A DNA stretch of 64,000 bases from positions 83,046,862 to 83,110,861 of the forward strand of contig NC_080584.1 in the NCBI RefSeq assembly GCF_029962835.1. The letters are read 5' to 3'. The stretch's first letter is position 1; the number at the start of each line of letters is the position of its first letter. The notes under the pieces were generated by a model. That model saw only the letters and a program-made list of their open reading frames with translations, had not been told where the DNA came from and did no database searches. Positions 2,320 to 22,661 of the stretch are shown in pieces. The stretch comes from Magnolia sinica. Taxonomy: Eukaryota; Streptophyta; Magnoliopsida; Magnoliales; Magnoliaceae. The translations under genes and the position numbers were made by a program.

Positions 2320-2362
<43 letters not shown>

Positions 2363-2447: not shown

Positions 2448-2515
<68 letters not shown>

Positions 2516-2665
2516 CAATTTGGGCATTTTTTGGCATTTTTTGGCATTTTTTAATCCTTCAAGTAGCATTGTGCAATGATTTATGTATTGGGAATTTTTG
2601 AGTTTCGAATCCCTAATTAGGGATTTGTAGTGTCGATTCCCTAATTGTGCATTATAGATTCAAAA
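2300..2665 (+). repeat. CT-rich leader repeat, related to 12.93-13.12 kb
   Basis: It contains an AAAACCCTAGTC word, two (CT)n tracts (2322-2360, 2450-2510), a TCGGCCCTCTGCTA word, a duplicated CTGCAACATCAGGTATCTC-like segment, and AATCCCTAATTAGGGATTT palindromes near 2610. The same words occur in the same order at 12,935-13,115 downstream of a CACTA end, so this is probably a detached internal piece of that transposon family. No coding frame beyond CT-derived Ser/Leu repeats is present. Confidence 0.6.
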
Positions 2666-3282
2666 CCTATGGTATTCCTTGTTGTCTTTTTTTTTTCTTC
2701 TTTTTTAAACCAAGGGTGTTGTGCTGCATTTATTATGATGTTTTGATTGATCTCATGCCTTTATCTTCACCTAGAATCGGATCATGTAGGATTGTGGCAT
2801 GCTTCACTTTCAGTATTTCACAGCTGCAAATAGCTGCATCAATACCCTGTTTTCAGTGGAATCCATGCTCTGTTTTTGGTAACCAAGCTGTTAATCAATG
2901 TATGATTGCTGGTCCTTAGGTTCTAACCACCTTTTATTATTATTCACCGTCAGCCTCAATCGCTGTCTGTAATCGATAACGATTCCAGTGCTTGACACTG
3001 TTGGGTAACAATGCGTAGATTGTTTTTGACGGCTTTGTATTTGGTGTTAGCGCATTGATTACTTGCTTGTCATGGGCTGTTTGTTTTGGTTGTGGGCCTG
3101 TGGCATGATTGGTTGTATGGATTATTTTTTGGCATTAGAGATACATGTTAGTGCATCAATCATTGATATCTTACGGGCCAAAGACCATCTCTAGACACTA
3201 GGTTTGTGATGTACATGAACCCACTTTGGACCCTTTAGCAGTTTTGCCAACAAACATCATGTGAAGAATTAACTAGTAAGGA
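2666..3282. other. Unassigned intergenic stretch
   Basis: Nothing recognisable on either strand between the CT-rich repeat and the solo LTR. Confidence 0.5.
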
Positions 3283-3287
3283 GTAGT

Positions 3288-4508
3288 TGATGCAGGACAT
3301 GGAAAATTAAATATGATATGCTAGATTTCAGGCTTAGATCACACCAATTCAGAAACAATCACACAAATTCCATATCCCACATGAAAATCCAAACATTCAA
3401 TTAAAGGGGAATCTATGCGGGTCCAAGCCGACACAGGCTAGGACTGGACCAATAAAAATTATAAACCAAACGATATCAAAGGGAAATAAAATCAACTACT
3501 CATGCATAAAAATTAGTCCCTAATCCAAGGGATTCCCTAATTTCAATTCAAGGAACCCTAAGGTGATAAAAAGAGGCAAATCAATTAGGGATCATGTAAT
3601 CTAGGGTTAGGATTCATGAAAAATGGCTATGAGAGGATAAAAGAGGATAAAAACCTGAGCTAAAAGATGATCCCGCGTGTGGACAGCAACAATGGCCCAG
3701 ACGGACGTGCGTATAATCTCGGCCGCACGTGTGTGGGGCCCACTATTCAGAAAAAAGGCCACCTTGGCCCTGGTCGGCCAGGGATGGACTCCAAAACTCC
3801 CAAATCTCAGCTCGATCCGATGTACGGTTTGTGTGTGGTGCTCCGTCGAAGTTTCAGCTCGCCTGGGGGTCGAAATCTGGAAACCTGCTGTAATGAAGAA
3901 ATCTGATGCAACAAAAGGACAAATTCGAAGTACGGATGGTGAGGGAAGATGAAAAAAAAGGTGACGGAAGATGGGGGTGAATGGAGATCGATGTGGCTTC
4001 GCACCACGGTAGTTAGCCCTTCGAAAAGGGAGGGCTTCGCACCCACTTTTGAATTCTTCCACAACTCACGAAGAGAGCAGAAAAATAAAGCAGGAATTTT
4101 TTTTATTAACTTCAATGAATGAAAAGAACTACAAGGGGTGCCTATTTATAGGGAGAACCCTATACCCAAAAACTCGCACCATGTGCGACACCTATTACTT
4201 GGCGATGAAGTAAACTAAAATAAAAACCAAACGAGGAAATCTAAAACGTTCATGATGTTCTAAATAATAACAATAAGCAAAACATAAAATATAAAACCAA
4301 TCTGACGAATGGGCCACGATCATGAGATCCCATGGTGGGCTTTTCTTGACTATCGGGCCACTTTTCTGAACCAAAACTTGACTTTTAGCTAGGAGGCCCT
4401 CCCTGGACGTCGTCATCGAGGCAGATCGATGGTGGGGTCCTCCATCTACGTACGTACGTGCGTAGGAGTGGCGGCGTGAGTGCGCGTGTGCGCGTGATGT
4501 CCCCATCA
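3288..4508. mobile_element. Solo LTR of an LTR retrotransposon (1.2 kb)
   Basis: The segment begins TGATG and ends CATCA, and is bordered on both sides by the 5-bp word GTAGT (3283-3287 and 4509-4513), as expected for a target-site duplication. A TATA-like CTATTTATAG lies near 4143. No internal region or second LTR is found next to it, so it is best read as a solo LTR fossil left by LTR-LTR recombination. The superfamily cannot be decided without coding sequence. Open frames inside it are not genes. Confidence 0.65.
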
Positions 4509-4513
4509 GTAGT

Positions 4514-5087
4514 CTTCCCCACCTGACTCCTTTGTTTTGTGATTCGGGCGTGAGCAACTATAATGGATTATCTCCTCCCGAGCTGTCTTTTGTATGATTC
4601 TTGCTAAGGCCGGTCCACTCGTCATGTAGGCTAGTGCATGAGTATGAGAAGAATTAACTAAATTTAAAAGCAGACATGTGAAGAATGCTTGATACATGTG
4701 TGGCCCACCTGATGTGCATTTCCGTTTGGGTATTTCTGCTCATGTATGTTTGGACTGACTCCTTTATTAACCCTTGCTTGTGATGTCTTCATCTGGAGCT
4801 ACTTCCACACTGGGAGAGCCTACTGCTTCAATAGGCAATTCTGGGAAGACCCAACTTGCATACAGATGATCTGAGCATTCTCTTGTACAGACCAAGTTGA
4901 CATCACTGACAGTAGCTACATAGGAAAAGGCATGTAAATATGCTAGGAGCCAATCATAGCCTCTTTGAGGTTGAATGATTGTGAAACTATAAAACTAGCT
5001 GCATAGTTTTTCATTTTGTCATTATTGTCTTGCCTACACTTCTGTTTTATCCATTTGGGTTTTAAGCAAAAACTTTAATACCATCAG
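4514..5087. other. Unassigned intergenic stretch
   Basis: No exon, repeat end or RNA gene recognised. It leads into the acidic exon-like segment at 5088. Confidence 0.4.
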
Positions 5088-5147
5088 GAAGAAGCTAAAG
5101 ACAAAGAAGAAGAGGAATACGAAGAAGAATCTGAAGAAGAAACTGAG
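5088..5147 (+). pseudogene. Exon-like acidic segment of unidentified gene
   Basis: Sixty bases preceded by CAG and followed by GTCAGT translate in one frame to 20 residues, 13 of them Glu, with Lys, Asp and one Tyr. The polypyrimidine-poor upstream sequence is a weak acceptor. The composition fits a charged linker of a nuclear or chaperone-type protein, but it is too biased to assign a family. It is the first in a row of + strand gene fragments reaching to 20.7 kb, so it may be another captured exon. A chance GAA-rich stretch is the alternative. Confidence 0.3.
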
Positions 5148-7394
5148 GTCAGTGGGATGTCGATCTGATTATTGCTTCTTTGTGCTTTTCTGTCTCTTCT
5201 TACTTTGGGAATCTTATGTTACAACTTGACAATTTCATTTTGCACCACTTAGCTGTCATTATCTGTATTCACTTCTTTCTTTTATGTAATTGTGCCTGAT
5301 GTTTGGCAGAAAAAGAAAGGCACGCAGGGTGTTATTGAGATCGAAAATCCTAATTTGTAAAACCAAAGAATTTGAAAGTGAGAGACGTTTTGGATATATC
5401 CTCCTAATTGTTGTACAGTGGGAAAAGTTTAGCATTTTGACATCTGGAAGCTTATTAGATAGTATGAAATTTGTCATTTAATGATTCTGCTAGAATTTTT
5501 CTGAATGCATTGGCTAAATTTATTGGTGTGTGGGGCTGAATATGTCTGTAGAGAAGGCCTTCTTCCTCTCATGTGGAATGTCTGAATAGATCATTGCTGC
5601 TCATAATATCTGTATTATATTCTACTTATGATTATATCACAAGGAATGGAAGCTTCTTCACCTCAAAATTTTCTTCAGTGTATGTCAATAACACCAAGTC
5701 CACTAGCACCTTAAAATAATTGCTCACAGACAGCTAACTTTTTTCCATGTGATCACCAATGGGGAAGAGTTTCTTCAAAAAATGCTCTCCAATTGATGGT
5801 ATTTAGTATGATATCATATTTCAATTCTTATTTCACAACCCATTCTAGAAGGTAACCCAGAAAATTATGCTGATCGATAACTCAAGTGGGCCACACCATA
5901 GGCAAATGTGGGAATGGAGATGTCTGCCCTTGAAATCTTCCAGAGGCGCAATGTGATGTTTATATGACATCTAACATGTTCATAAGGTTACATGGATGAT
6001 GAAGAGAAAAACTAAATACATACTCTATCCAAGAAGTCGGTTGGGTCCTAGGAAGATTCAATGGTGTTTGTTCTATTCTGTTGTTCCCAGTAGTGTGGTC
6101 CACTTGAGATTTGGATGGCCCTGATTTTCTGGTTTACCTCCTAAAATGGTCTGTATCAGGTGATAGATGGATTGGATTTCAAATATACATCATGGTGGGT
6201 ACATGGTACATTCCCTCTGAGTAGGGAGGAGTGGAGACGTCTCTTTAACATGGGTGAACTATGGAACACCGTAATTTTGGAGTGCTACTCACATGGGACC
6301 AAAATCAGTAGGACTCTGCATCATGTCATTTTATTCCTGAATTGTTCTGCTGACTGATATATAAGATTAGAATGGTATTGTATCATATCAAATGATAGTT
6401 AACCCATGCTTCAAGGTCGGGACTTATCTGCCACTTTGACATAGTAGACTACAACATCCATCCCCCAGATGCACATGCATTAATACAACACTAGCTCATG
6501 AAAAATGTGTTTCATTCACAATCAAACTGGGTCCCCATCACTCTTCAAGGACAGGTGATGGCTTCCATTGACATGGCCCAACATAAACATTGCACTTGAG
6601 TCATGTTAAACCATAAGATTACATATATGCGTGTTTATTCCACTAACAATGGGGAAATTATACATAGAGAGATGGGATGTCCAGGGAGAAATTTGTGGAG
6701 ATCAGTTAAGAGATACAATTTTAAATTTTTTTTTCTTTTTTAAAGAAATGTCTTAATCTAAAAGATTACCTTATTCACTTACATAACCAGTCAAAAATAT
6801 AACTTTGGCTCCCCCCTTTACTGTGTTGTGTGGATTAGAAGAGATAGTGAACTCACTATTTTGGATATCTTGTGAGATGGTGGTTGCTTGGACTTTAGCT
6901 TATGGTACTTGTGATGTTTTGAAGAACTGGATGTTGAAAGATATGAGATTGGCAATTTACTATAGCAGTTTGCTACCTCATCCATGACCATGCCTTTGAA
7001 TATTAGAGCTGTAGATGCTTTGGAGTCTATGGTTTTAATATTACATGTTTGGTAATGAGTGGATGCATGTGAGGAGCTGCAAAGGGGCACTATCACTTAT
7101 CAAGGCTTTGCAGGGAAAGCTTGAGGGACTATAACTTTGGTGCTGCAAGTCAGGCTTGTTGGATTTTATTCTTTCACTATTTTTTTAATCTTACATTTAC
7201 TATTGGTTATGCTTGTAGATGTATGGAATACTTGATGATCACTCTTGGTTATGTTGTTCTTGGCTTGTCTTGTTGCCCATGATTGTAGCTGCTTAGGTTC
7301 ATGGGAATGTGTTATTGTTCTTACTGTATTCCTTGTCATTGCCTTCAACTGGAAGCTATCTTTGCAACATTGATCTGTTGATTTCTCTGAATTG
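5148..7394. other. Intergenic stretch with traces of dispersed GTGGGCC repeat
   Basis: Around 5880-6360 there are words of the dispersed non-coding family seen at 23.6 kb and 30.7 kb (CAAGTGGGCCACACCA, CCTAAAATGGTCTG). The rest holds only short chance frames. No gene is recognised. Confidence 0.4.
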
Positions 7395-7670
7395 TGTTAT
7401 GCAGCTCGGTATGCTCATGTTCCCGGGTTGAAAGTGCTGACTCCATACTCATCAGAAGACGCTCGGGGCTTTTTAAAAGCTGTTATTAGAGATCCTGATC
7501 CTGTAGTTTTTCTTGAAAACGAGTTGCTATATGTAGCTTTTTGAATGTGGAACTATTTGTCATGTGAAACTTGAAGTATTTATCTGATTAACATTGATTT
7601 TGGAGAGTCTTTCCCTGTTTCAGCGGAAGCTCTTGATTCCAGTTTCTGCCTTCCAATAGGAAAAGCTAAG
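7395..7670 (+). pseudogene. Pyruvate dehydrogenase E1 beta, two-exon fragment
   Basis: The first exon (7395-7532) translates without a stop to 46 residues, from [20 protein letters not shown] to [10 protein letters not shown]. This is the transketolase-type pyrimidine-binding region of the E1 beta subunit, which works with E1 alpha in the mitochondrial or plastid complex making acetyl-CoA. The second (7602-7670) reads GESFPVSAEALDSSFCLPIG then KAK and is followed by GTATGA. The two are in register with the family and separated by a short intron starting GTAGCT, but no AG lies directly before exon 2. The usual Trp after CYAA is Arg. The protein is normally about 350-400 residues; only about 69 are here and no other exons were seen nearby. 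I infer a dead DNA-copied fragment that kept its intron, not a retrocopy. Confidence 0.85.
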
Positions 7671-8854
7671 GTATGATTTTTTTTGTAATGCATCACACGT
7701 TATCTGCAAATTTAATTTTTTCTTTAAGTTCCTCATCACACGGTACTCATATTATTGACTCCTTAACTAATGCTTGGCAGTGATTGCTTGATCTTTCTTT
7801 TCTTTTCATATCATGGTGGGTTGTTCTGCTTTGTAATCCTTGTTGTCTATTGAACTTCCTTTTAAGCCAGATTTCAGAGATGCATAGGTTCAGTGGCATA
7901 CTAGTCTGTTGGTGTTTCAAGAACTGGTTTTCCCCTAAAATGATAAATTACTCGAACCTGAAATTTCAAATCATTGGTTCTGATAAACAAGGCTACAAGC
8001 CAGATTAATCAGTTTTATGTGGAGTCTAAGCCTCCAATTTGTTAGGGTTGAGGAGACTCAGATCATTTGCTTCATTGTTTCCATTACTTTTCTATGTTTG
8101 GAATTTTTTTTTCTGCTTTTCTGTCACTTATTTTGATTTTTTTTTTTTTTTTTTCTGGCTATGCATGCATCATGGATCTGATTTTGGACAGTCTGGATTA
8201 GCATACAGGCACCCCATTCTTCTATCAGATGATATTATCTTATCTATGTTGTTGAGGAAATTTTCTTCAACTTTAGACTGATTATTTCCTGTAGGATGTG
8301 TAGGAACCTTTTCTTCTTTTATTTCTTTCATTGAGGACATGCTAATTACTGTTTGGGACTTCAGAATGCAGCCTTGCTTGAGTTTTGGGCAAGTGAATAT
8401 TAAGAGAGACTGCACACATGCACCTTTGAGATTAGCAACCCTGCTAGTTTTACTAGTATTAATTAGGACACATTAATAGGGGTATGTTCTCTTCCTTGTT
8501 TGGAGAGGAGGAACTGCGTGTTTTCATGGGTATTTTGGTCAAATTCCATATGTGGGGTGTTACAGTGGGTCTATATTCAGAGACACCTCTGGCCCAACTG
8601 ATGAGTTGACATTCTGGATTTTTGATAGAATCTATTTTTCAGCCTTATTCGTTCCTTAGTGGGCTCTGAGATGGACATCATGGCCTCACAGAAAAGAGAT
8701 GGTTAATAGCACTGTAATTCAGGGTGTGTTTGAGAATGTGAAAATTGATAGACCCAAATTTATTTCCATGCAGAACTGAATTCTGAAACTATGGTCAAGT
8801 TCTCATGCACAGGTTAACTATTATGAGATCTTTATGAGATTTCCAAAGAGAGGT
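7671..8854. other. Unassigned AT-rich intergenic stretch
   Basis: No exon with family resemblance was recognised. Short frames near 7784 and 8039 are T-rich and look random. Confidence 0.4.
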
Positions 8855-9103
8855 AGATTTCTTTAGAACAACAGCCCGTTTGGTAGAAGAGGTAACACCT
8901 CTAGCCGTGCTCTCTGAGCAGTAGCTCCTTTGGAGCCCGCTTTCACGTCGACTCAAGGGCCGTAGTGTGGAAATACCAGATCTGCCCGTTCAGTTTAAAA
9001 GTGAGACGTAGTGTTTTTTGTTTTTGTTTGTTAATCTTAGTTTATGCTTATACCTATGAAGGCACTTAATGTAATGGATTTGATATTGAATTTGGTATGC
9101 TTA
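8855..9103 (+). repeat. Dispersed repeat B, copy 1
   Basis: About 250 bp nearly matching 16,573-16,820 in the same orientation. Shared words include TTTAGAACAACAGCC, GTTTGGTAGAAGAGGTAACA, TTTCACGTCGAC, ACCAGATCTGCCCGTT and TATACCTATGAAGGCA. Its first 35 bases also recur, truncated, in both units of the 173-bp tandem repeat at 9210-9555. No terminal repeats or coding frame were identified. Confidence 0.75.
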
Positions 9104-9209
9104 TAGGAGTTGAGGCTAGGGGCTTTATATTCATCAATCTCTTTCACAAATAATTGATCTTGCTTAATTTATTTTTGAGAATTTTATAGATAATTACCTC
9201 CTTAATATA

Positions 9210-9555
9210 GATTGGAAAATATACTCAAAGAGAGTTTGATTTCTTTAGAACAACAGCCCGTTTGGTAGAAGAGTTTGATTTCTAGGTGACTAAGAGCTGC
9301 AACAACTGCTTCACATCTTCAGGTACTTGTTGAAGAAGTGCATTATGGATTAAAAAATGGTTTTTTGACACAAATCATGTATGATTGGAAAATATACTCA
9401 AAGAGAGTTTGATTTCTTTAGAACAACAGCCCGTTTGGTAGAAGAGTTTGATTTCTAGGTGACTAAGAGCTGCAACAACTGCTTCACATCTTCAGGTACT
9501 TGTTGAAGAAGTGCATTATCGATTAAAAAATGGTTTTTTGACACAAATCATGTAT
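9210..9555 (+). repeat. 173-bp tandem duplication (two units)
   Basis: The word ATTGGAAAATATACTC occurs at 9211 and 9384, and everything between repeats almost perfectly (units 9210-9382 and 9383-9555). Each unit includes a truncated start of repeat B and the segment leading into the NDR-kinase-like exon. Only the second unit continues into the recognisable kinase codons. Confidence 0.85.
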
Positions 9556-9612
9556 GAAATGCTCATCGGTTATCCACCATTTTACTCTAATGAATCAATG
9601 TCAACATGTTAA
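9496..9612 (+). pseudogene. NDR/tricornered-type AGC kinase, exon fragment
   Basis: From 9550 the frame reads MYEMLIGYPPFYSNESMSTC before a stop at 9610-9612. This is the conserved kinase subdomain IX-X region of plant NDR kinases (MYEML.GYPPFYSD.P), which are cytosolic Ser/Thr kinases acting with MOB proteins in growth and cytokinesis. Upstream bases (from about 9496) weakly resemble the preceding codons of the same exon, and that part is duplicated in tandem. Only about 20 residues are convincing out of a protein of about 550. Another AGC-family kinase is possible. Confidence 0.6.
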
Positions 9613-10532
9613 AGTGAAAAATGTGTATTGAAATCATTCATTTTTGGTGAAACTGTTAAAGTTTCCTGCACTATTAGTTCATTGACAAGACCTTCATTTA
9701 GAATTTGAAGAAGTCTACTACCATTTGAGGTGCTTTCCTATGATCCTTGCAGGGATAGTTGCAGCACTGAAACTAGTTGGCAGAACCCTGGTTGAGCACA
9801 CTTTCTTTATTTCTTGGTGCAAGCAAGGTGCTCTCATGTTTCCTTTATGGTGACTTGTTAGTGAAATAGAATTGGTGAAGACCTTTCTTGTGAACTATAA
9901 ATTCAAACTTGTCACTCATCTTGTCACGCGAATCATGAATCTGCTCACCAGTAGGACCCTTCACCTAATAATTTTGCACAATTGTGGGATCAAAACAGTG
10001 GTGGTATAAATCAAACAAATGTAGATGAGAAAAAATAAACGTTGGCCCCCTAAAAGAAAATTTGATTCCGTTAACCAAGTGCTTTTTTATTGGTAATATC
10101 CTGTATTTTTAAGAAACTGACTCAGTTATTATTGCCAATACAATCTACTTTCTATGAGATAGCATGATCACTCCCAACGGACGGTTCACCACACAAAAAA
10201 GGATCTGCCTGTCCATGAGTGATTGTAAGTCTTGGGCTGAACTATCTATTGGTATATTTATTTGGTAGTGCATAATAGCTAGTGACAAAAGCTAGGGATG
10301 GCAATACATTGGTCAGGGCTTGGGCTCCTAAACTTGGCTCAAGGACCCATTGGCATGCTCCAATCATCAAGTGGGTCATGGTTATACAAAAGGTATGAAT
10401 GATTTAAAGATACTTGAAATTGATCTGTCTGATCATCAGTGTAAGTCAGTGGGCCTACCTTTTTCATTTTTCTTTGTTTTTCTCATATGGGTCCTTTTCA
10501 ATTTTCTCTAATGTTGGTGGGTTTGGATGCAG
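9613..10532. other. Unassigned intergenic stretch
   Basis: Nothing recognised. It separates the NDR-type and WNK fragments. Confidence 0.4.
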
Positions 10533-11062
10533 GTACAGAGCCTTTGATGAATATGAAGGGATTGAGGTGGCATGGAACCAGGTGAAGCTGTATGACTTCT
10601 TATAGAGCCCTGAAGATCTAGAGAGGCTTTACTGTGAAATCCATCTCGTCAAGACCTTGAAACATAAGAACATCATGAAATTGTACACCTCTTGGGTTGA
10701 TACTGCTAACAGAAACATCAATTTCATCACTGAGATGTTCACCTCAGGCACCCTCAGACAGTAAGTTTTCTTGTTGTCGTTGTTGTTGTTGTTGTGTTTT
10801 TTTTTTGTTTTGTTTTGTTTTTTTTTTTTATGAATTTTAAATTTTGAGGTTGGGTTGGATCGGATTGGTTTTGGGTGGTGGTAGGTATAGGCAAAAGCAC
10901 AAGAGGGTGAACATAAGGGCAGTGAAGTATTGGTGTAGGCAGATCTTGAAAGGGCTTCTTTATCTCCATAGCCATGACCCACCTGTCATCCACGGAGATC
11001 TCAAGTGTGACAACATTTTCGTCAATGCTAATCAAGGTGAGGTCAAGATCGGAGAATTTTAA
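10533..11062 (+). pseudogene. WNK kinase fragment, two exons
   Basis: Exon 1 (10533-10760, acceptor CAG, donor GTAAGT) reads YRAFDEYEGIEVAWNQVKLY, then, after a break, [20 protein letters not shown] to MFTSGTLRQ. Exon 2 (10885-11062) reads [20 protein letters not shown] to [20 protein letters not shown] and stops. This is the N-lobe and early catalytic loop of a plant WNK (with-no-lysine) Ser/Thr kinase. The TAG at 10603-10605 replaces a Gln codon. The catalytic HRD is HGD, and the sequence ends before the DLG activation segment. The intron between the exons is kept, so the copy was made from DNA. Whole WNKs have 550-700 residues; about a quarter of the kinase domain is here. Non-functional. 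Confidence 0.9.
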
Positions 11063-11106
11063 ATTACAACAGATTTGTAAGTTAATAAGGTTTATAAAAT
11101 ACCAAT
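11061..11106 (+). repeat. 46-bp direct repeat, left copy
   Basis: AAATTACAACAGATTTGTAA followed by GTTAATAAGGTTTATAAAATACC recurs at 12,344-12,388 with a one-base gap. It begins exactly where WNK homology ends. The word ATTGAACATTGG follows it here and precedes the right copy. Confidence 0.85.
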
Positions 11107-11312
11107 TGAACATTGGCCTGTTTATCCTGTTTTCAGATGGTTCCTTTTTGTTCAATATTATCTCTTGGGCCTGGAATTATAATTAAAAAAACTCAGTTGT
11201 GCATTCTTCCTCTGCTTAACCCGAGTTAGATTTGTGCAAGACTTTGTTCTTTTTCGATATGCTAGCTTGTGATTATTACGGCATCTCTAATTGAGGTGTT
11301 TTGGATGTGCAG

Positions 11313-11390
11313 GTTGAAAGCATAGTTTTGAGTATTATTTCCATGCTTTCAGGTCCTAATGATGAATTTCCTGCAAACATTGAAGCCGCA
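11313..11390 (+). pseudogene. Ubiquitin-conjugating E2 (UBC7/13/14 type), one exon
   Basis: Twenty-six codons flanked by TGCAG and GTAAGT read VESIVLSIISMLSGPNDEFP then ANIEAA. This matches the C-terminal half of the UBC fold in the plant UBC7/13/14 (UBE2G-like) group, which acts in ubiquitin transfer including ER-associated degradation. There is no stop and both splice sites are intact, but the active-site Cys exon and the last exon (starting KEWR) were not found within several kb. It sits 250 bp after an unrelated WNK fragment, so it is a relocated single exon rather than part of a gene. Confidence 0.8.
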
Positions 11391-12343
11391 GTAAGTAAAA
11401 ATTCGCAATTCATCCATTTTCTTTGCTTACTCGTTTGTTCATGACGGTCAAATAGGGTGGTATTGGAATTTCATAAATTCGAATGGAACAGAATGACCTT
11501 TGCCTGAATGTCTTTACTGTTGTTTCTTTCCTTTGAAGAAACGGGCCGACTCACCATTTCTAGCTGGTTTGACATTCCATTCTCTGTTCTCCTCAATGAG
11601 GACCAGGATTTCCACACTCTCCAAACATAGCACTGTTTACAATTTAGAAGAGTTGTTTAAATAGGACCAAGTTGCCATATATGCTCTTTTCCAAAACTGC
11701 CTTAGCCTTCTAGGTTGATGCTATCAAATTTTTTATTTTTCACTAGTTGTTTGCCTTTGTGTTTTATCAAGGGAGCTGTATTTACACACCAACCCTTGTA
11801 TATCCATTTTTGGCAGTATAGTCCTTCAACCAGAGTAGAAAATGGGGAGATGAAATTCATGGGTTGCCATTTTGAAATATAAAATTTTCTGCTGTTCAGA
11901 AATCTTAGGTAATGATTATTAGTATCCCCAGTCCGTGATCATGCATTTCTTGTTTGATGTATATTATTCAATGTTTGGGCAAGGGATTGTGAAGTAAGTT
12001 TGGGTTTTCAAATTGTTCAAGTGAGGCCCATGGTTCAGGGATCCAAATAGTTTAGTTGATGTGTGGCCCATGCACAAAAAATCTCCCCAGTTGGAAGATT
12101 CCAGCTATCAAACATCTGGACCTCGGCCTCTTTCTGTATATTTGGCCTTCTTTCAGCTTTTAATGTAACGCTGTGTGTATTTTCTTCTCTATTTGTTGCC
12201 ACCTATTGAAGATGAGTTCCCCATCTGGACATTCTCTGGTGCATGGGTCATCCACAGTGAGGTCCAAAATATCAACTGTCTTTTTTTTTTTTTTTTAATT
12301 ATTATTGAACATTGGTCGTGGAACAACTGTCATTATGTCTGAT
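11391..12343. other. Unassigned intergenic stretch
   Basis: No family resemblance seen. It lies between the E2 exon and the right copy of the 46-bp direct repeat. Confidence 0.4.
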
Positions 12344-12388
12344 AAATTACAACAGATTTGTAAGTTAATAAGTTTATAAAATACCAAT
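12344..12388 (+). repeat. 46-bp direct repeat, right copy
   Basis: Partner of 11,061-11,106. Together they bracket 1.2 kb containing the E2 exon. Confidence 0.85.
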
Positions 12389-12529
12389 GATTCAACTACA
12401 TATGTTTTTACTTTCTAAGTAATACGTGAATCAGTTTATTATTCTCTAATTGTATTAATTAATAGTTAAAAGACCTATCTAGTTGTGGCACTAGTTTCAT
12501 TGTTGCCATAACATATTATGTTTTGACCA

Positions 12530-12674
12530 CACTACAAGAAAACGTAGCTTAGCCGACGGACGGGGCTACCCTTTGCCGGTGGCCAATTTTAACAACCGCG
12601 GGCAAAGGGTCCCTATAAAAAGAAAAAGAAAAAAACCCTATCTCATTTTCCGTTCTTTCATCTCCAGCCACGCA

Positions 12675-12714
<40 letters not shown>

Positions 12715-13120
12715 CTCTCCCTCTCCACTCACTCAAGCTCTCCCTCTCTACTCGCTCTTCCTCCCTCTCCCTCTCACGTGCTCTCCCTCTCCCTCTCCCT
12801 CTCTCACGCTCTCCCTCTCCCTCTCTCACGCTCTCCCTCTCCCTCTCTCTGCCTCTCCATCTCCCTCTCCCTCTCCGCTCGCTCTGTCTCACTCTCCCTC
12901 TGCCTCTCACTCTCTCTATCCCTATCTCTCTCTCTCAAAACCCTAGTCCTCTCTCTCTCTCTATCTCCTCGGCCCTCTACTGCAATTCGGCCTTCTGCTG
13001 TTCGTGAATCTCAGATTCTCAAGTATGATGTAAGGCTTTTCTGCAATTTAGAATACCTCTTGGGCATATGCATTGACAAATCCCTAATTAGGGATTTGCA
13101 TTGTCGAATCCCTTTTTAGG
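12530..13120 (+). mobile_element. CACTA transposon left end with CT-rich leader
   Basis: It starts CACTACAAGAAAACGTAGC, the classic CACTA (En/Spm) terminus, followed by TTAGCCGACGG and GCCGGTGGCC subterminal words. The inverse of the right end of the MITE at 22,658 shows the same pattern. A TATA-like CCCTATAAAAAG (about 12,611) precedes a 300-bp CT-rich tract, AAAACCCTAGTCC and a TCGGCCCTCTACTGC word shared with 2.3-2.6 kb, then AATCCCTAATTAGGGATTT near 13,080. No matching right end was found within several kb downstream, so the element is truncated or its right end has decayed. No transposase exon is recognised. Confidence 0.65.
12679..12712. repeat. (CT)n tract inside the CACTA end
   Basis: Pure CT units followed by about 250 bp of imperfect CT and CCCTCT repeats. 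Confidence 0.9.
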
Positions 13121-13896
13121 GATTGCTGCTGTTTATTTCATTCACTATCCATTTGTTTGTCATTGATCTAACGATCGTGATCTTCCCAAGTACATTTGCC
13201 CACTTGTACTAACTGATGGTAGAGGAGGACACTAGGGGTCCTACTACAGTGGGCCCCCCGATGAACCTTGCCATCCAGTTTTTGGCCTATGATGGACGAC
13301 CAAAAATAGGATATAACCAACTGTCCATATGCAACTCCTTGAAATCCACTGATTGGATGGCTTGGTTTTTTTGATGGAGGTGATGATTGGCGCAATCACC
13401 CATCCATGGTAGAACCCACCAGATGGTTGATCTGGATCCTCAAAAGTGGGCCCCAGCCAACTGAAATTAGCAGCATAGTATAATGTTGCATTTCTAATCA
13501 TATCATAAGATGTTTAAGCATTTAGTATAATTTCTGGTAAGATCATAATGCTTATATGCTATGGTGATTCTATTACCTCTGCCTTTCTTGTTCTAAATTC
13601 TCTGTATAAATCTCTATTGCATAAATCTCCCATTTCATAGATTTATATCCTCCGATGATGTCCATTCACAGCCTTCTTTATTTGCCTTTCCTTCTCTATT
13701 ATGTTGAGCCTCCATAATTTTTCCCACCTCCATTGGATAATAATTTGACTTAAGCATCACTGTTTGGTTATTTGCAAACAATGAAATACAACTTCAATCA
13801 CATATTGTTCAAGCCAAAGACGTTTCAGGAATTACTCTTGGATAAGGTAATACAGCTTTCCCTCTTTTCAAATGGTGAAATTTGAAGGAACATTTA
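13121..13896. other. Intergenic stretch with dispersed GTGGGCCCC words
   Basis: Around 13,240-13,460 the text has GTGGGCCCC, CCATCC and TTGGATGG words typical of the dispersed family at 23.6 and 30.7 kb. No element ends were defined. Confidence 0.35.
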
Positions 13897-14120
13897 GGTC
13901 CTATTTGGATGCCTAAAAATGAGTTCATCATTATATATTAGAGATCTTGATCTCTAAACTTAATTACTGTTGACATGAACTCACTATGTATTAGAGGTAA
14001 TGATTTTTGCTTATTAAGATTATATTCAATCATTTCCCTTAGAAAGATGCTCTCTAATACATAATTACGATTAACTAAAATGATATGAACTCATTTTTAG
14101 GTGTCTACTGAACAGGCCCC
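13897..14120. mobile_element. MITE with about 30-bp terminal inverted repeats
   Basis: The left end, CCTATTTGGATGCCTAAAAA then TGAGTTCA, is mirrored at the right end as TGAACTCATTTTTAGGTG then an eroded TCTACTGAACAGGCCCC. The interior is AT-rich with TCTCTAATACATAATTA-type words and no coding frame. TAG borders both sides, compatible with a 3-bp target duplication as in PIF/Harbinger-type MITEs. A hAT origin is possible because the outermost bases have decayed. Confidence 0.65.
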
Positions 14121-16572
14121 TAGCTGATTGTCCTACACAAGGTTTGAAATGGCCATATCGGGTATTATATCCTTCACCATTAATATGGGGATGTATGCCC
14201 CATACGGTCTATATAGGTGTCTTGTTCATATGGTTCTGGACAATACCAGCATGTATCAGGTGATATATACTAGTTTCAGATGATACTTTAGACCGTAAAG
14301 AGTGGTTTCCTTTATTTAGAATTACTGCAAGGACACTTATCAAATGGTTATTCGTTTGGGTTAGTTATATCATCAAAGCCATTTTCAACTGAAATATAAG
14401 TTGCTTGTAGCTATTAAAATGTGAGTTACTTCTCCTGATATTACTTTTGGCCTTTGATTTCTTGTTGTTGATACACACCAATTGCCACATTTCATATAAC
14501 AAAAAATTTGGGTTTTTCATGGATGTGGATAAAATGGCAGCTATTGGCCGTGATGCACACGGTCGGTCCCACCACAAACATGCCCTTCTCTAGTAGCATT
14601 TTAGATAGACTCAAGTTAAGCCGTCACAATCAGGATTGAACTTTAGGTGAGTCATAGGTCAAAAATTTACAATGGACCGGTGCCTTTGATTTGGATGGTT
14701 TGAATTGGAGATACACTCATGGCAGTTCACACATATTTCAACCGTTGATTGCATTTGATCATTGATTAATATCTACTAACCTTTAGTCTTCTCTCATGAG
14801 AAAGACAGATGTAGAAAACATGGCAGCAATTAATCATTCGTTGAAATGTGAGCAGGTCGAAAAGGGTCACTCTCTTTCAAGAGTTCTATGCTCTTCTCGT
14901 GCAATGCCAGAGGGTTCACATTCAGATAGAAATGATTTCAATGGGTACTTAGATCCATGGATATCCGAAATGTCCGACCCAATTTAACCGTGAGCTAGAT
15001 TTTGGGCGTGATTGATTAACTGGGTGGGATTCGAGTCCATGTATTTTGCCCGACTACAAATCGGGTTCGGCGTCTAATTGGGCTAATCAAATGAAAGTGG
15101 TAACCTTTAGGCTTAAGGTGGTCCTGGGAAGATATGGGGCCCGCATTGTGTATTTATCACATCCAACCTACCCATCTGATGTGTCCCCTCCGGTTACCTT
15201 AATCACAAAAATCAGCTGGATCCGCAATACCAATGTTAAACAGTCATTGCAATAACATTTCATTGAAGTGAATGTTTATGTCATCTTTACATCTTCATGT
15301 CATGGTGTGCATATTTGGTGTTTTGGTGGTGAAATTTGTGTTCATGGACACATAAGATCTATGTATTGAAATAAATTCAATGGTGGTCCATTGATCAACG
15401 TAAAGTGAAACCTTCCATTAAATACAAAAATAAAAATAAAAATGAGTTAGCAATGACCATCATCACATATTTTGTTATAGTTGTAATTGAATTGATTTTG
15501 TTTAATCAATTTAGCTATGAAAAAATAGTGAAAGAAATGCATATGGACCAAAATCAGCAGTATATTTTACAACGAAGGGAGAAATATTAGTGCTATATAA
15601 GTGTAAAATAAAGAAGGGAAAAAAAAAAAAGGAAAAGCTGCTATGCATAGGAATGTAGACCGTGCCTGCCTCTTTTGGGGAGAACAACTTCATGTGCATG
15701 ATTGATTGATGGGGGACCACGCCTAACTCCAAAATAGAAGGCATGCCACAATACCATGCTAGAGTACTTAGCATTTACAGTTTATTCAAAGTTGTTCTAT
15801 ATGAGAATAAATGAATGAGTTAGGAATAGATAAGAGGGCTAAGATTTAGGATCATTTTAGGTTTACATTTAGATATTTAAAGTTTTTTTATGGGCATGTC
15901 TTTGGGACACGATCTATTCTATGTTATTGCTGGATTAAAAGACCACAAAAATTTCATCTCCATTAGGAGTTTGATTTTACATTTTTTATGTTAGATAAGA
16001 GGGCTAAGATTTAGTATCATTTTTTTTATGGACATTTTACATTTTACTTGTTAGTGTTGAATGCTACCACTTTAAGATGCCTTTGTTTTTTTAGTGAAAG
16101 TCTTGTGGAACAGGTAATTCACTCTTCTTCTTTTTTTTGTTTTCTTTCTTTTTTCAGGAGTGTTTTAGTTTTACAGAAAGAAGAGAAAGGTTAAGAATAG
16201 GTAATTCACCTTTAAGCAGCTTACTGTTTGCTATGGTTGCATCCTTCTTTTTTTTTTCTTTTTTTTTCTTTTTTTTTTGTTGATTCTAATTTTTTTGTAG
16301 TTGATTTGGATTTTTCAGGACATGGATGGATATAATTTGTGCTCGGATTTTGATTATTTTGTAGTTATTTGGATTTTTTTTTCTACTTTTCTGTCGCTTA
16401 TTTTGATTATTTTGTAATATGTAGTAGATATTATTAGATTAATTTATCAAAATAAAATTTGTTTATTCAGTTTAAACACATTTTGTTATTAGTTAGCTAG
16501 ATGATGAATGTCAATTATGATTGATTATGGAATTGTTTAAGTATAGGACAATCAGTTACCCATTATGGGATT
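14121..16572. other. AT-rich intergenic stretch without recognised genes
   Basis: It contains T-rich runs (16,130-16,290) and dispersed GTGGGTCC/GGGGCCC words near 14,560 and 15,135. Short frames show no family resemblance. Confidence 0.4.
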
Positions 16573-16820
16573 GATTTCTTTAGAACAACAGCCAGTTTGG
16601 TAGAAGAGGTAACACCTCTAGCCGTGCTCTCTGAGCAGTATCTCATTTGGAGTCCCCTTTCACGTCGACCCAAGGGTCTTAGCATGGAACTACCAGATCT
16701 GCCCGTTGAGTCTAAAAGAGAGATGCATTGTTTTTTGTTTTTGTTTGTTAGTCTTATTTTATGCTTATACCTATGAAGGCATTTAATTTAATAGATTTGA
16801 TATTGAATTTGGTATGCTTA
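16573..16820 (+). repeat. Dispersed repeat B, copy 2
   Basis: Same orientation and extent as 8855-9103, with scattered substitutions. The final part, GATTTGATATTGAATTTG, is repeated once more within the next 50 bases. Confidence 0.75.
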
Positions 16821-16944
16821 CAAGTTAAGTTGCAAGTTATTAATTTAATGGATTTGATATTGAATTTGTTATTAGTTAGTTAGATGATGAATGTCAATTA
16901 CGATTGATTATGAAATTGTTTAAGTATAGGACAATCAGTTGGCC

Positions 16945-17011
16945 ATTTGAGAATTTCTATGTGGCCAAGCATAGATATAATGTGCTTTTGGAGGCATAGA
17001 AATTCTCAAAT
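16945..17011. repeat. Short inverted repeat (17-bp arms)
   Basis: ATTTGAGAATTTCTATG (from 16,945) is exactly inverted at 16,995-17,011 with a 33-bp loop. It may be the remnant of a small foldback element. Confidence 0.7.
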
Positions 17012-18143
17012 TGTCCCACGTTTGGACAATTTTATTTAGGTCATATCAAAGGATGGCTACTACACAAGCACGTATATTATACATCAGTTAACTACCTTAA
17101 AATACGTAGTCTTATCCGGACCATATAGATATAGGGGATATAACCATTCGGTGCATCATTTTGCACTAAAAGAAGGTTTTTCTTACCCTCCAGAAAGCCC
17201 CGTTGCAAATAGTGACCCATTGATGTTAGGAAACTGATCACCGGATCCTATCTGAATATCTAGCCGCCTAAAAGAGCTCCTACACTGATGCTTCATTCGA
17301 GAAATTTCATTTGGCAATCTAGTTGTTGTTTGTATCACTGTCAAATCTCAAGATGAGTATTTATTTCTTTCCTCCAACAATTTCAAAACCAATGATAAAA
17401 GCTTAAAAGGAAAAAAGAAATTGCAAATGAAAGAGAACTGTTACAGCAATGTTCACCATTTAATTTCTCAAGTTGCATTTGGATGACCAAGTAAACTGAA
17501 TTGCAAATCTGTCAACCAAACAAGTTTTTCTCGTTATTATAAATCTGTCAACCAAACGGCATGTTTACAGGTTTCCGGATTTGTGACTCTCAATTTTCAA
17601 GATGAACTAAGATGAACTGATTGTGAGTTCTCAGGGAACAAAACTCTACATGTTGCAGCATGAAAGTATAACTGATTGCCAGCTATGAAACAAATATCGA
17701 CATGAACATGTGCATCAACATGGCTGAACATGTCTGGGAACATTTTAAAACTTTTTTTTTCAAAAAAGTGAAAATTTTCTTATTTTTTAATACTGTTTTT
17801 GGATATTTCATACAAGAAATGTTCTATTTACTTTTTATATAATTAAATACATTTCAGCAGACATGTCTTGACTAATAAGACAGCAAGCCCACTTATTTTA
17901 TATACATATATGGGAATGCAACATATTTGTATTTGTGGTTACATGTACTTCATGTGAACCAAGCAAAGCTCCTGGGATTAACATCATGCCAAACTCTTCA
18001 ATGCAAGTTCCAGCTCATAGATAAGCAAACATGTATTGGAAACACAAGTCAAAATAAACTAACATTGCCCGCCAATGAACAGGAATTTTCTGAATTAAAC
18101 ATAATGGAGTAATCATTACAAATGAGAACTGCTCTTTGGCAGA
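17012..18143. other. Unassigned AT-rich intergenic stretch
   Basis: No exon, RNA gene or repeat end recognised. Confidence 0.4.
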
Positions 18144-18197
18144 TTTGTGCTAGTAAAAGTATGAAATACAATATACAGGTCACCTAGAACTTCAATT
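18144..18197 (+). repeat. 54-bp direct repeat, left copy
   Basis: TTTGTGCTAGTAAAAGTATG and the following 34 bases recur at 19,898-19,951 with one difference. The pair brackets 1.7 kb that includes the synergin-like fragment. Confidence 0.85.
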
Positions 18198-18821
18198 TGT
18201 ATAGAGTAGTCCCATTGCGCTCTAGCATGCCAAACAATGTCTAGGTAAAAGAGAACATGGCAGTGAATGGGTTACCTCCCAGTCCCAATTGCTTAATGGG
18301 TCCCATAAATGAGACCTAGATGTATTAACATTGGGTTGGATTCATCAGGTACCCATTGACAGCCACATACTAGGTGCAAAAACTCTCTTGATTGTACTCA
18401 TGTCTGGTCTTCTCTAAGCCCAACCATGAAGATGTTTGCATAGGTCCCTTTGGCGAGCAATCTCAATTCGCAGACCCCAGCACTGATTTCTGAGTAGGAA
18501 GCTTCTTCAGCCATTGGATGAGGGAAACCCATTTGGATGTAGATGCTATTGTCCTTGTACATCTATTTGTATCCAATTATCTACTTCAGTAGTGATGCGA
18601 TATTGTTTTCCTCAAAAAACTTGCAGTTCTTATACATTAAACTTCAAACCCATGCCAAATGAAATTTCATTGTATATACAATGCCTGGTTTTATCCACAA
18701 CTTCCAACTCCAATCAAATTGGATAAAGAAAACCTATTTGTTGCTTTCAAGAGCTCTTTGTAAGAAACCTTTAAATGGGGGCATCGAGAGAAGACGTGCT
18801 TTTAGTGTTGGGATGTACTCT

Positions 18822-18962
18822 GGTTTAGTGCTGGGATGTACTCTTAAGTAGCTCTTGCTTCATCCTTGGTTATTTCTGGTTTAGTGCTGGGATGTACTCT
18901 TAACTAGCTCTTGCTTCATCCTTGATTATTCCCAGTTTAGTGCTGGGATGTACTCTTAACTC
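18822..18962 (+). repeat. 56-bp minisatellite, about 2.5 units
   Basis: The units start GTTTAGTGCTGGGATGTACT and continue CTTAA.TAGCTCTTGCTTCATCC. Two full units and one partial unit lie head to tail, with a further partial start at 18,808. Confidence 0.85.
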
Positions 18963-19090
18963 TTCACATTTTAAAAAAAAAAATGTACCACCTACTTTTT
19001 ATTTACTACTGAAGTTTGCCTGTAGTCTTGTGGCACATGCATTGTAAGAACGCTAGCTATATTTGATAATTCAGTAATTTTTAGTTGCAG

Positions 19091-19728
19091 GGCATTGAAG
19101 AAATATTGGAGCATAGTCAAGGAACCACTCCATATACTTTTAGCAATGGAAAACCGGATTATGGTGATATGTTTAACGCCCAAGAGGGGTTTTTTCATGG
19201 ACTCACCACCTCTGTTTCAATGGCATCAATTCTGGTTGGAGCAGTGCTTTTAGTGATCTTATTTCAGAGCTGTACAGTCAAGCTGAGCAGATATCCACTG
19301 TAAATTCTACTCGACAACCCATTGCAAATGAATTTAGTTCAACTCAGTTGGGCCTGAATTCAGATTTAGTAAATGGTGATGATGATTTGGATGAAAATGA
19401 CTGGGAATTCAAGGATGCCTTCTCAGAAGGCACAGTTGGAAATGGGAATCCTGAATTTGAGATTGTAGATGCACATCAAAACTTTTCTGCTGAACTAAAG
19501 CTAAAGAATTTTGTAGGTTTCTACTCTAGATTGAAAGACGAAGCACGATTTTTCATACTTGACCATCATGATGATCTCAAGGTGAGTCCAAATTCATTGT
19601 TAAGATCTATCTTTATCATTTCATAGAGCTGAAAGAAATTGAATGGTGGTAGGTGTTAGAAAGCCAAGAAGGATGCTGCTCTTTCTAGTGATGAAGTAAA
19701 GGTTATGGCCTTTGATGAGGAAATTCAG
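19091..19728 (+). pseudogene. Synergin-gamma-like protein, two-exon fragment
   Basis: Exon 1 (19091-19581) is bounded by TTGCAG and GTGAG. It first reads GIEEILEHSQGTTPYTFSNG to GLTTSVSMAS. After a change of frame near 19,225 it reads SDLISELYSQAEQISTVNST to YSRLKDEARFFILDHHDDLK. Exon 2 (19653-19728) reads AKKDAALSSDEVKVMAFDEE then IQ, with donor GTGTGT. I recognise this as the acidic WEFKDAFSE plus YSRLK...AA(L)S region of a plant protein often labelled synergin-gamma-like or dentin-sialophosphoprotein-like, whose role (membrane traffic) is uncertain. The frame change and the missing rest of the gene make it a pseudogene fragment. The family name is less certain than the exon structure. Confidence 0.55.
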
Positions 19729-19770
19729 GTGTGTAGTTTCATCAAATTAGCTTGGTCTTTTCCTTTGGAA

Positions 19771-19776
<6 letters not shown>

Positions 19777-19804
<28 letters not shown>
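19777..19804. repeat. (TG)n microsatellite
   Basis: About 14 TG units in the intron-like sequence after the synergin-like fragment. Confidence 0.95.
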
Positions 19805-19807
<3 letters not shown>

Positions 19808-19897
19808 CGACATGTTTGCCTGTGTCCTATATGTTCCAGTTCACTTTTGGGGGTGTGGTATTTCTTCCTTAGGATGCTTCAGTTTAGTAATTCCAGG

Positions 19898-19951
19898 TTT
19901 GTGCTAGTAAAAGTATGAAATACAATATACAGGTTACCTAGAACTTCAATT
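19898..19951 (+). repeat. 54-bp direct repeat, right copy
   Basis: Partner of 18,144-18,197. Confidence 0.85.
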
Positions 19952-20308
19952 ATTTTACTTGGGCTAATGATGGTTAATCATCTACATTGTTGGAGCTATT
20001 TCTGTAGCCTACTTGTGCTGCTGTCTTCAATGTCACCTAGTTGTCGTATACCCGGTTGTTTAGTACATAAGGCTGTGATCTGGAGTTGAGTATCAGTTGT
20101 TTACTAATGGGATCTATTTTGGGTAGGATACAGATTAAAAGGTTGTGAATTAAATGAGTTTCTGTTAGGAAGCATAGTGCTAGTATTTTAAGTCAGATAT
20201 GGACCAGAATCGGTTCCCAGAGTTATCTGTGTACATCATCCAACTGGATTCAATTAGCTTGAGGAGAGGCTCCTAATCTGCTTTAATTTGACATTTGTTC
20301 CGTTTCAG

Positions 20309-20670
20309 GCTTTCAGCCAAAGGAGATATATGTGGATGATGAGGCCAAGTTGACCCTGCATTGTCTCATACAGGTACTGGATGTTTCTGAAATGTGCATT
20401 GAGTTCTCTTATTACCTTCTGTTTTCTTGTCTTTTTGTTAATTGCTCCGCACTTCTTTTCTGACCATTTTATTAATTTTCTGAAGCACTGCATTAAACTG
20501 AGCGAGTTGGAGAAAAAACGCAAGTTGAATGACCTCCTAGATGCATCGGATTTTAATTAAGTCGTTATTTTCGTTAAAAGTGGGAGCAGAGCAGCTGAGC
20601 TGAACAAGCTACTCGTGGAGTGTAATTTCCCATCTATCTGCATCCATTCTGGAATGTCCCAGGAGGAAAG
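20309..20670 (+). pseudogene. DEAD-box RNA helicase UAP56/SUB2, two-exon fragment
   Basis: Exon 1 (20309-20373; CAG before, GTACTG after) reads FQPKEIYVDDEAKLTLHCLI then Q. Exon 2 (20486-20670) reads HCIKLSELEKKRKLNDLLDA, SDFN, a stop, then [20 protein letters not shown] to HSGMSQEE. This is the linker and start of the second RecA domain of UAP56 (plant RH15/RH56), the nuclear mRNA splicing and export helicase. TAA at 20558-20560 replaces a Gln codon. The next expected exon (the RYKGFKEG region) is absent. Introns are kept. About 80 of about 430 residues remain, so it is a non-functional DNA-copied fragment. Confidence 0.9.
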
Positions 20671-21509
20671 GTTGGTAAACGTCTTTGGGCTACACATTGA
20701 TTTGCTTGCAAGTGCTTTATTTTGTACCTGCGCAGGTCCTCACATTTTCTCTGATTTGGAAGGTCAACACTTTGTTCAGTTGCACTGTTGTAGTGAATTG
20801 TAATAATGAGTTCAATCAAGTGCAAATTGACTAAATTGCAATTACCTTAGTATTCTGTGGCGGTCTGAGTTAACTCTGTGGTTCACATGCAGTTTCCAAG
20901 TGCCCGCACATCATCAATCACACTTGGACAGAGTATTAAAGCATTTCTCTTGCTACAATACATCCCAATGCATGACAATAGGTGCACGGGACTTTCACCG
21001 TTGGATAGGAGTCCCTTTGAATGACCCAAGCCATTTATGTGGTGGGCCTCACAATCGATAAGGATACCTAAAAATAATCTCACATTTAAATATTTCATCT
21101 CTATGATTGTTTAAAGATTAAAGAGACTTGGCATTTGTAAAGAAAAAGAGCAAGATGATCAAAGGGTTAAAATAGTTCAATTTTAATTTTTAATTTTTAT
21201 CTTCATTAATATTCAGGCCCATCATAAAAACACTTTAGTTCATTGAAAGATGACCCAGGTTGCTTAGATGAGCCACACAATATGAAATCATGTAATTTTA
21301 TGCCCAAAATATCCAAAAGCATCTGATGGGGATTACTTAGAGTTTTGAAATGACTTGAAATTTAGTACAACCCCTTTTTCATGTGAGACACACATAATGG
21401 ATGCATTATGTCTCAACAACATCTAACTAGGAAGGTTTCAATGGGTGGGCATCCACTCTTACCTATTGTCTATAGTGTGACCCACCTAATGTATGGATTG
21501 GCCTGAACA
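20671..21509. other. Unassigned intergenic stretch
   Basis: Scattered dispersed-repeat words such as GGTGGGCCTCACAATC near 21,040. No gene recognised. Confidence 0.4.
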
Positions 21510-21988: not shown

Positions 21989-21991
21989 GCA

Positions 21992-22453
21992 CACTACAAC
22001 AAAAGAGGCCTTTAGCCACAGTTCAAAACTGTAACTAAAAAGGATAAAACTGAAGCTAAAGCTTTTAGCCTCATATTGGATTATATTTTCTCTATTTACT
22101 ATGCTAGACTGAGTTACTAATGCAGATTTGGAAGTTTGAGAAATGTTCCAATGCTCTCAGAGCACTGTCTATACTGAAATGTAATGAGAGTAGCTTTTGG
22201 ACATTTTTTGCCCACCTGCATCAAGCTGATCCTTCATCATTGATGGCAACCTTTGACTGACAGAATATCTGCTTGAGTTATATCCAGTAAAATCCACATT
22301 TACATATCAGAGTTCTGATAACGAACACTAGATGCTTCTAAACGAAGATAGATGGTCGATTGAGAGAGGGAAAAGGAGAAATAGAGAGAGAGGGTCGATT
22401 GAGAAAGGGATAGTAGAGGTGGAGATGGCGATGGCTGTCGCTGCATCTAAAGG

Positions 22454-22494
<41 letters not shown>

Positions 22495-22658
22495 GACGGA
22501 GAGAGAGTTAGAGAGAGAGCGTCGGGAGAGGGGAGAAAAAAGGGTTAGGGCTTTTGATACGTACGGTATTTATACCCGATCACTGACAGACGCCCCATTT
22601 TAATTAGCGCCGGTAAACTAGCCACGCATATCGTCGGCTAAGCTTGCTTTTGTTGTAA
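21992..22658 (-). mobile_element. CACTA-type MITE, 667 bp
   Basis: The left end is CACTACAACAAAAGAGGCC. The right end, inverted, is TTACAACAAAAGCAAGC then TTAGCCGACG, the same subterminal word as the CACTA end at 12,530. GCA borders both sides (21,989-21,991 and 22,659-22,661), a 3-bp target duplication as expected. Read on the minus strand, the right end has GGGTATAAATACC about 85 bp in, followed by AGCCCTAACCC and a CT-rich tract, a promoter-and-leader look shared with 12.6-12.95 kb. No transposase is present, so it is non-autonomous. Confidence 0.75.
22456..22490. repeat. (GA)n tract in the CACTA MITE
   Basis: Pure GA units; on the minus strand this is the CT-rich leader. Confidence 0.9.
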
Positions 22659-22661
22659 GCA

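Follow-up and report, generated by a model that had tools for sequence, protein, structure and literature searches.

Host-gene fragments in a 64-kb stretch of the Magnolia sinica genome as probable cargo of two adjacent CACTA elements

Introduction

The capture of host genes by CACTA transposons is already known, and elements of the Pack-CACTA and Tpn1 type have been described. The Pack-CACTAs of Arabidopsis are reported as non-autonomous elements with CACTACAA ends which carry coding DNA, the Pack-CACTAs of maize are those with cargo from the most distinct loci, and the model of capture given for Pack-TYPE elements includes nearby insertions in the same direction (PMC8903248). In Ipomoea nil, the non-autonomous CACTA copies of the Tpn1 family have been reported to number in the hundreds; their interior is replaced by captured host genic DNA, and chimeric transcripts were also reported (PMC5105172). 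Tgm-Express1 from soybean is described as a single CACTA element that carries exons together with introns from five genes unrelated to each other, and these fragments are spliced into chimeric transcripts; the introns marked in that report fit GT/AG, which suggests that the cargo reads in one direction (PMC1947982). In Chenopodium, gene fragments were described in the 5' part of CACTA elements, ahead of the transposase, and a CACTA transposase from Magnolia ashei is listed in the same report (PMC8978399). This paper focuses on a stretch of 64 kb from Magnolia sinica (C12:83046862-83110861, the window), in which pieces of unrelated host genes follow each other and are probably carried by two CACTA elements.

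Relatives of the window were sought in the same 1.84-Gb genome, whose contigs C1-C19 appear to be of chromosome size. Protein searches were performed with + strand frames, in which stops were written as X, against Pfam and PDB, with a threshold of E 0.01 for Pfam. In the literature, none of the titles listed (10 of 185) referred to a study of gene-capturing CACTA elements in Magnolia. A narrow open-access search for the orientation of cargo in gene-capturing CACTA elements yielded PMC8903248, of which the part concerned treats the direction of neighbouring elements and not that of the cargo.

CACTA Termini and Related Copies

Six host-gene fragments had been named in a first-pass annotation of the window, belonging to PDH E1 beta, an NDR kinase, a WNK kinase, a UBC7-type E2, a synergin-gamma-like protein and UAP56. 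All six were confirmed on the + strand, NDR and synergin by translation only. With a probability of about 0.84, they are cargo of two adjacent members of the CACTA (En/Spm) family pointing in the same direction, a left element (E1) and a right element (E2), whose features are collected in Table 1. E2 starts with an exact CACTACAAGAAAA at position 12530, and a very similar 5' sequence opens copies on C5, C11, C8 and C2. A pattern for this terminus was found 534 times in the genome (270 + 264 matches with at most two mismatches), while the reversed control gave 0. The pairing of termini with cargo described below used the 100 of these 534 matches that were listed.

The copy on C5 is complete. 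It comprises 19,199 bp, has CACTACAAGAAAA ends with a 3' end reading ...GGATGGTTTTCTTGTAGTG, and is flanked by GCA on both sides as a 3-bp target site duplication. Terminal sequences beginning with CACTA were identified at both of its ends and, in the window, at the 5' end of E2. Host gene fragments lie inside these ends: the PDAP1 piece, identified by its motif, and a match to the NDR segment are present in the order of the window, together with Myb (above the Pfam cut-off) and RETICULATA (E 0.0018, below the cut-off and weak), both in sense. The sequence GCCGRC or its reverse complement occurs twice in the first 300 bp of this copy, three times in the last 300 bp and five times in the interior of 18,599 bp. 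A LINE is nested in the copy, with matches to RVT_1, RVT_3, zf-RVT, DUF4283 and RRM_1.

In the C8 and C11 stretches, Transpos_assoc (PF13963, E 2.8e-16) was identified in one of 12 sense frames and RETICULATA in two (best E 0.0048), while the 12 antisense frames contained no Pfam family. A motif search placed Transpos_assoc in the C11 copy, on the strand of the 5' end of that copy and 6 kb downstream from it, after a sequence similar to the repeated module M. Stretches from C2, C12:43.46 Mb and two further parts of C8 gave no Pfam family in 12 sense and 12 antisense frames, and Transposase_21 was not found in any stretch scanned (parts of the window, C5, C8, C11, C2 and C12:43.46 Mb).

The C8 copy extends from C8:57811181 to about 57873100, which is roughly 62 kb with repeated internal units, its 3' tip being placed by likeness to the C5 copy. 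The segment of the PDAP1 tail and the RETICULATA-side block occurs four times in it, 10-16 kb apart.

The first-pass annotation had proposed that intron-bearing genomic DNA was captured by a DNA transposon, and had named copies elsewhere in the genome with a common boundary and the same fragments as support for one element. The former was supported, and a common boundary with some of the same fragments was present. Its suggestion of one large element or of nested ones was right in that more than one element is involved; these are most likely two adjacent elements, not one.

Table 1: Features of the window, with positions counted from its first base.
Feature	Positions	Strand	Basis or remark
E1, CACTA relative without 5' tip	2299..12529	+	Parts colinear with CACTA copies on C5, C11, C8
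E1 5' leader, CT-rich start	2299..5003	+	Common to C5, C11, C8
PDAP1-like capture: two C-terminal exons, intron, 3' flank	5004..5834	+	92% to C3:123.43 Mb, sharp edges
Segment matching C1:1476803-1477818(-) in pieces	5835..6812	+	6597-6812 also in C5/C11/C8
RETICULATA-side block	6804..7286	+	Continues in relatives towards RETICULATA match; window departs after 7286
PDH E1-beta segment, two exons with introns	7287..8101	+	PDB/Pfam; likely source matches 7394-8101
Module M, first copy	8717..9273	+	Repeated at many loci; M-like sequence precedes transposase-associated domain in C11
NDR-kinase fragment	9445..9622	+	Translation; 80% DNA match in C5 element
WNK kinase fragment, two exons	10255..11055	+	WNK1 matches; gene-like loci match 10453-11055
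UBC7-type E2 fragment	11060..11793	+	Protein match at 11262-11474, E 3.6e-4
E2, CACTA with 5' terminus	12530..20855	+	Right edge is last base common to other copies
CACTA 5' terminus CACTACAAGAAAACGTAGCTTAGCCGAC	12530..12557	+	Sequence; 7 other loci with matches beginning 12529-12531
309-bp stretch, probably insertion	14996..15304	.	Missing from C16, C10, C12:48.97 Mb relatives
Module M, second copy	16356..17032	+	Repeat comparison
Block X with CRINKLY4-like fragment	17273..18554	-	Inverted in window versus other copies; identity by eye
Block S: synergin-gamma-like and UAP56	18666..20855	+	Whole or large part at at least 20 other loci; PDB match for UAP56
Separate small CACTA-like element, not part of E2	21992..22661	-	CACTACAACAAAAG... 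ends, GCA both sides, one damaged end (read by eye)

The Left Element and the Sources of Its Cargo

E1 contains, in order, PDAP1, the RETICULATA-side block, PDH E1-beta, module M, NDR, WNK and UBC, with the WNK/UBC part presumably belonging to it. The array had been delimited at 5088; its + strand fragments are real, and it starts further left, at about 2299, where the homology of the leader sets in for several copies. In five other leader copies (C5:73.05, C13:32.90, C13:33.04, C7:16.62 and C5:104.09 Mb), a listed CACTA 5' end lies 146-342 bp upstream of the main match, which indicates that the tip of E1 is missing. An insertion at 3288-4507, missing from C5, C11 and C8, splits the leader. 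The C5 and C11 copies, and partly the C8 copy, show colinearity over 2323-3287, 4508-5761, 6597-6812 and 6804-7286, and the divergence of the window from these three copies is 0.02-0.07 substitutions per site (Kimura two-parameter, K2P). The stretch 5762-6596 is missing from all three. Since one part of it (to 5834) matches the PDAP1 parent and the other the C1 segment, it was probably lost by C5, C11 and C8.

The exons at 5088-5360, which had been assigned to PDH, were shown by translation and comparison with the parent locus to encode instead the C-terminus of a PDAP1-like phosphoprotein; we take the gene at 5004-5834 to be that of the PDAP1-like 28-kDa heat/acid-stable phosphoprotein. The parent gene at C3:123.43 Mb has further exons up to about 123.450 Mb. 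At the joint 5003/5004, element and parent have a few bases in common (TAG). At 5834/5835, no common bases are evident and no filler is present, and the unrelated sequences abut at base resolution.

After 7286, the window leaves its relatives and enters the PDH segment, as does C18:48.42 Mb, where C18:48424484-48426474(-) shares 7189-9139 of the window at 89%. The exon at 7392-7535 matches PDH E1-beta in PDB (3exe_B, E 5.8e-12) and Transket_pyr in Pfam (E 2.3e-4, below the curated cut-off); a second exon at 7624-7670 was read by eye. The PDH pieces are 90-95% identical to C3:5846899-5848441(-), with a Transketolase_C exon adjoining at C3:5845057(-). They probably derive from this locus, C3:5845057-5848441(-), which may be a damaged copy itself, with one TGA in the matched Transketolase_C stretch. 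The search for parent loci, suggested by the first-pass annotation, thus led to two loci on C3, the parent gene of the PDAP1-like piece and the likely source of PDH, and for these pieces the captured DNA derives from genomic parents with introns.

The NDR kinase was recognised near 9549-9606 by 'YEMLIGYPPFYSNESMSTC' in the translation only. A 175-bp direct repeat (9210-9384/9383-9557) adjoins this fragment. The WNK exons at 10495-10770 and 10886-11071 contain in-frame stops and match WNK1 with E 5e-7 and 1.7e-15, and the piece 10453-11055 matches C13:7.34 Mb (92%) and C4:61.92 Mb (90%). At C13:34.99-35.01 Mb, copies of WNK and UBC are present 15 kb apart on one strand.

The stretch 10255-10647 is a repeat bearing a WNK exon, which was found at 14 loci with 95-97% identity, most of them ending at 10646-10647 inside the exon.

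The Right Element

The cargo of E2 consists of module M, an inverted CRINKLY4-like block (X), synergin and UAP56. Three loci, C16:57.95, C10:33.69 and C12:48.97 Mb, show colinearity (87-94%) with its positions 12831/12843-14995 and 15305-16106. A locus on C3 shows the order CACTA 5' end (979737, - strand, one mismatch to the pattern), M, X and block S.

Block S, which combines the synergin-like part (19080-19740, by translation only) with UAP56 (20483-20677; PDB E 1.6e-14, Pfam Helicase_C just E 0.0089), is present whole or largely at at least 20 other loci with 91-95% identity, from 40 candidates scored; two further loci hold just its first 100-180 bases. For seven of the 20 loci, a CACTA 5' end was found 1.6-2.8 kb upstream on the same strand, among the 100 of 534 matches listed. 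Helicase_C was identified in sense also in the C3 copy.

In nine of nine other loci which show both, block X and its neighbour S are on opposite strands. In the window they share one strand, so that a local inversion probably occurred in the window copy; the inverted block lies between two blocks which keep their order in the C3 copy. The fragment in X is presumably a piece of a CRINKLY4-like ectodomain. In the C3 copy it reads in sense when translated by eye; no Pfam family was identified for it there, and a PDB search of the opposite strand gave AMSH at chance level only.

An open frame in module M, 16562-16720, begins with IDFFRTTASLVEEVTPLAVLSEQYLIW and gave no Pfam match in the scanned frames. 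It may represent a captured exon or a gene of the element itself.

Orientation of the Cargo

The claim of a uniform strand holds for the six named pieces, with one exception for the array, the CRINKLY4-like fragment on the - strand within 17273-18554. In Pfam, Transket_pyr, Pkinase/PK_Tyr_Ser-Thr and Helicase_C were found on the + strand of 3001-21602 (E 0.01), while the opposite strand of 2301-21990 gave no family at the same threshold, nor did the antisense of the last 6.7 kb of the C5 copy. Thus, PDH, WNK and UAP56 in the window and RETICULATA and Myb in C5 were all detected in sense and none in antisense (five of five, by chance about 1 in 32). PDH, UAP56 and RETICULATA are below the Pfam cut-offs, but PDH and UAP56 are firm in the PDB searches. 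In total, ten genes read in sense, either in the window or in one of the other copies, namely PDAP1, PDH, NDR, WNK, UBC, synergin, UAP56, RETICULATA, Myb and CRINKLY4-like, a count which partly rests on fragments recognised by eye and in which copies of one capture are not independent.

It is tentatively suggested that capture or retention by CACTA elements depends on polarity, in that only pieces lying along the transcription of the element are acquired or survive, the antisense state of the CRINKLY4-like piece being due to a local inversion. If true, this would make these CACTA elements long splice-through exon collectors. With its hundreds of termini, its sharp joints and source genes that can be identified, this family would allow the order and direction of captures to be counted, and layered changes are visible, for example in the PDH segment at the edge of the RETICULATA-side block.

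Evaluation of Alternative Explanations

Several observations weigh against two CACTA elements as carriers. A search of the 64 kb which allowed up to two mismatches yielded no 3' CACTA terminus for either element, so that a target duplication cannot be shown there, and E1 is without its own 5' tip in the window. Subterminal repeats are few, with one GCCGRC or reverse complement for E2. A CACTA transposase domain was found neither on the + strand of 3001-21602 nor in the scanned sense frames of the C5 copy. The WNK/UBC stretch is present in no other CACTA copy seen, the 14-copy WNK repeat is linked to CACTA by position only, the C5 copy gave no exact match to the NDR kinase motif, and for 13 of the 20 S loci, which are thus not yet tied to CACTA, the 100 matches listed include no terminus. 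The 3.2 kb past the S block at C12:43.46 Mb showed no 3' terminus by eye and motif; a pattern based on the 3' end of the C5 copy gave 75 sites with an exact match in C5 only, and at none of them was another S copy recognised to end.

The closest alternative is a variant in which E1 and E2 form one composite moved as a unit, with decayed inner ends. The two elements are adjacent and of the same direction, joint mobilisation of such neighbours has been proposed for Pack-TYPE elements (PMC8903248), and a CACTA 5' end at C17:50.076-50.080 Mb is likewise preceded by a WNK copy, at a distance of about 3.3 kb and with both on one strand. The intact 5' terminus of E2 and the fact that no locus was seen with both full cargos make a composite unlikely. 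It is rather improbable that the fragments are located on separate small repeats and that insertions piled up by chance to form the array. This was one of the outcomes which the first-pass annotation had named as refuting its own view, and at the level of modules, separate recurrence was indeed observed: WNK at 14 loci, synergin with UAP56 at 20 loci, and PDAP1 on C5, C11 and C8. However, CACTA 5' ends precede the PDAP1 copies and seven S copies on the same strand, and modules recur in a common order, namely PDAP1, RETICULATA-side block and NDR segment in C5, RETICULATA-side edge, PDH and M in C18, and M, X and S in C3.

Helitrons were among the carriers considered in the first-pass annotation, as one large element or nested ones which gathered the fragments in their own sense, and cargo of one strand with introns is compatible with Helitrons. 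On the + strand of 1001-23000, a scan detected 0 perfect hairpins with CTRRT behind them, with 0.1 expected (20 Markov controls), and CACTA termini were found instead. None of the eight right-hand module edges examined ends in CTRR, and Pfam scans of both strands revealed no Helitron helicase domain, which a non-autonomous copy, lacking Rep/helicase, would not contain anyway. The copies are accounted for by CACTA ends, and Helitrons are very improbable. An origin of the pieces as leftovers of full genes, or in plain segmental duplications with no transposon involved, would agree with the kept introns and the existing source loci, but is contradicted by unrelated gene pieces abutting at base resolution (5834/5835) and by the recurrence of the same mosaic at CACTA-ended loci; no complete gene was found among the fragments, and this explanation is close to being excluded.

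Two further candidates were rejected. Retrocopies had already been excluded by the first-pass annotation on the basis of kept introns, and introns are indeed present in the PDAP1, PDH and WNK pieces. For a Pack-MULE, which would have long terminal inverted repeats around its cargo, the sole inverted pair of at least 60 nt in 1-23000 is a 113-nt palindrome at 21507-21739 which does not flank the array.

Neighbouring Features

The palindrome at 21507-21739 is near-perfect, with 113-nt arms, 97% complementary, and 7 nt between the arms, and may be a foldback element. The small CACTA-like neighbour at 21992-22661 contains a CT/GA-rich tract. Further to the right, 31459-44715 and 47177-58590 form a tandem duplication with an offset of about 16.4 kb (96% over 8.9 kb), of which further partial copies are present at 62818-64000, at 1-1051 and in the flank upstream of the window.

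Possible Mechanism of Acquisition

For the two CACTA elements, it is conceivable that each fragment was copied from genomic DNA during the repair of excision gaps; alternatively, neighbouring elements may have been mobilised jointly and have lost their inner ends. The elements would have been moved by a transposase encoded elsewhere, and recombination between copies may later have mixed the modules. The sense orientation might be caused by direction-dependent capture or by loss of antisense pieces through blocked transcription of the element. In the latter case, transcription from the 5' side of the element would maintain cargo in sense, which is spliced through, while antisense cargo would block or silence the element.

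Comparison to Known Gene-Capturing CACTA Elements

The elements are filed as Pack-CACTA or Tpn1-like, which is a known kind, and the uniform sense orientation is the notable point. Compared to Pack-CACTAs, the Magnolia elements are long, with 19 kb for the complete copy including the nested LINE and roughly 62 kb for the C8 copy, and contain many fragments. The 339 copies of Tpn1 are given with an average of 7,081 bp (PMC5105172), whereas the complete C5 copy described here has 19,199 bp. In Chenopodium, the reported CACTA elements contain one or two short fragments each, in contrast to the many fragments here, while the position of the fragments upstream of the transposase is similar to that in the C11 copy (PMC8978399). 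Tgm-Express1 is a single element of 5.7 kb, whereas in Magnolia the modules are present at tens of loci in varied combinations; its spliced fragments provide a precedent for cargo in sense as identified here (PMC1947982).

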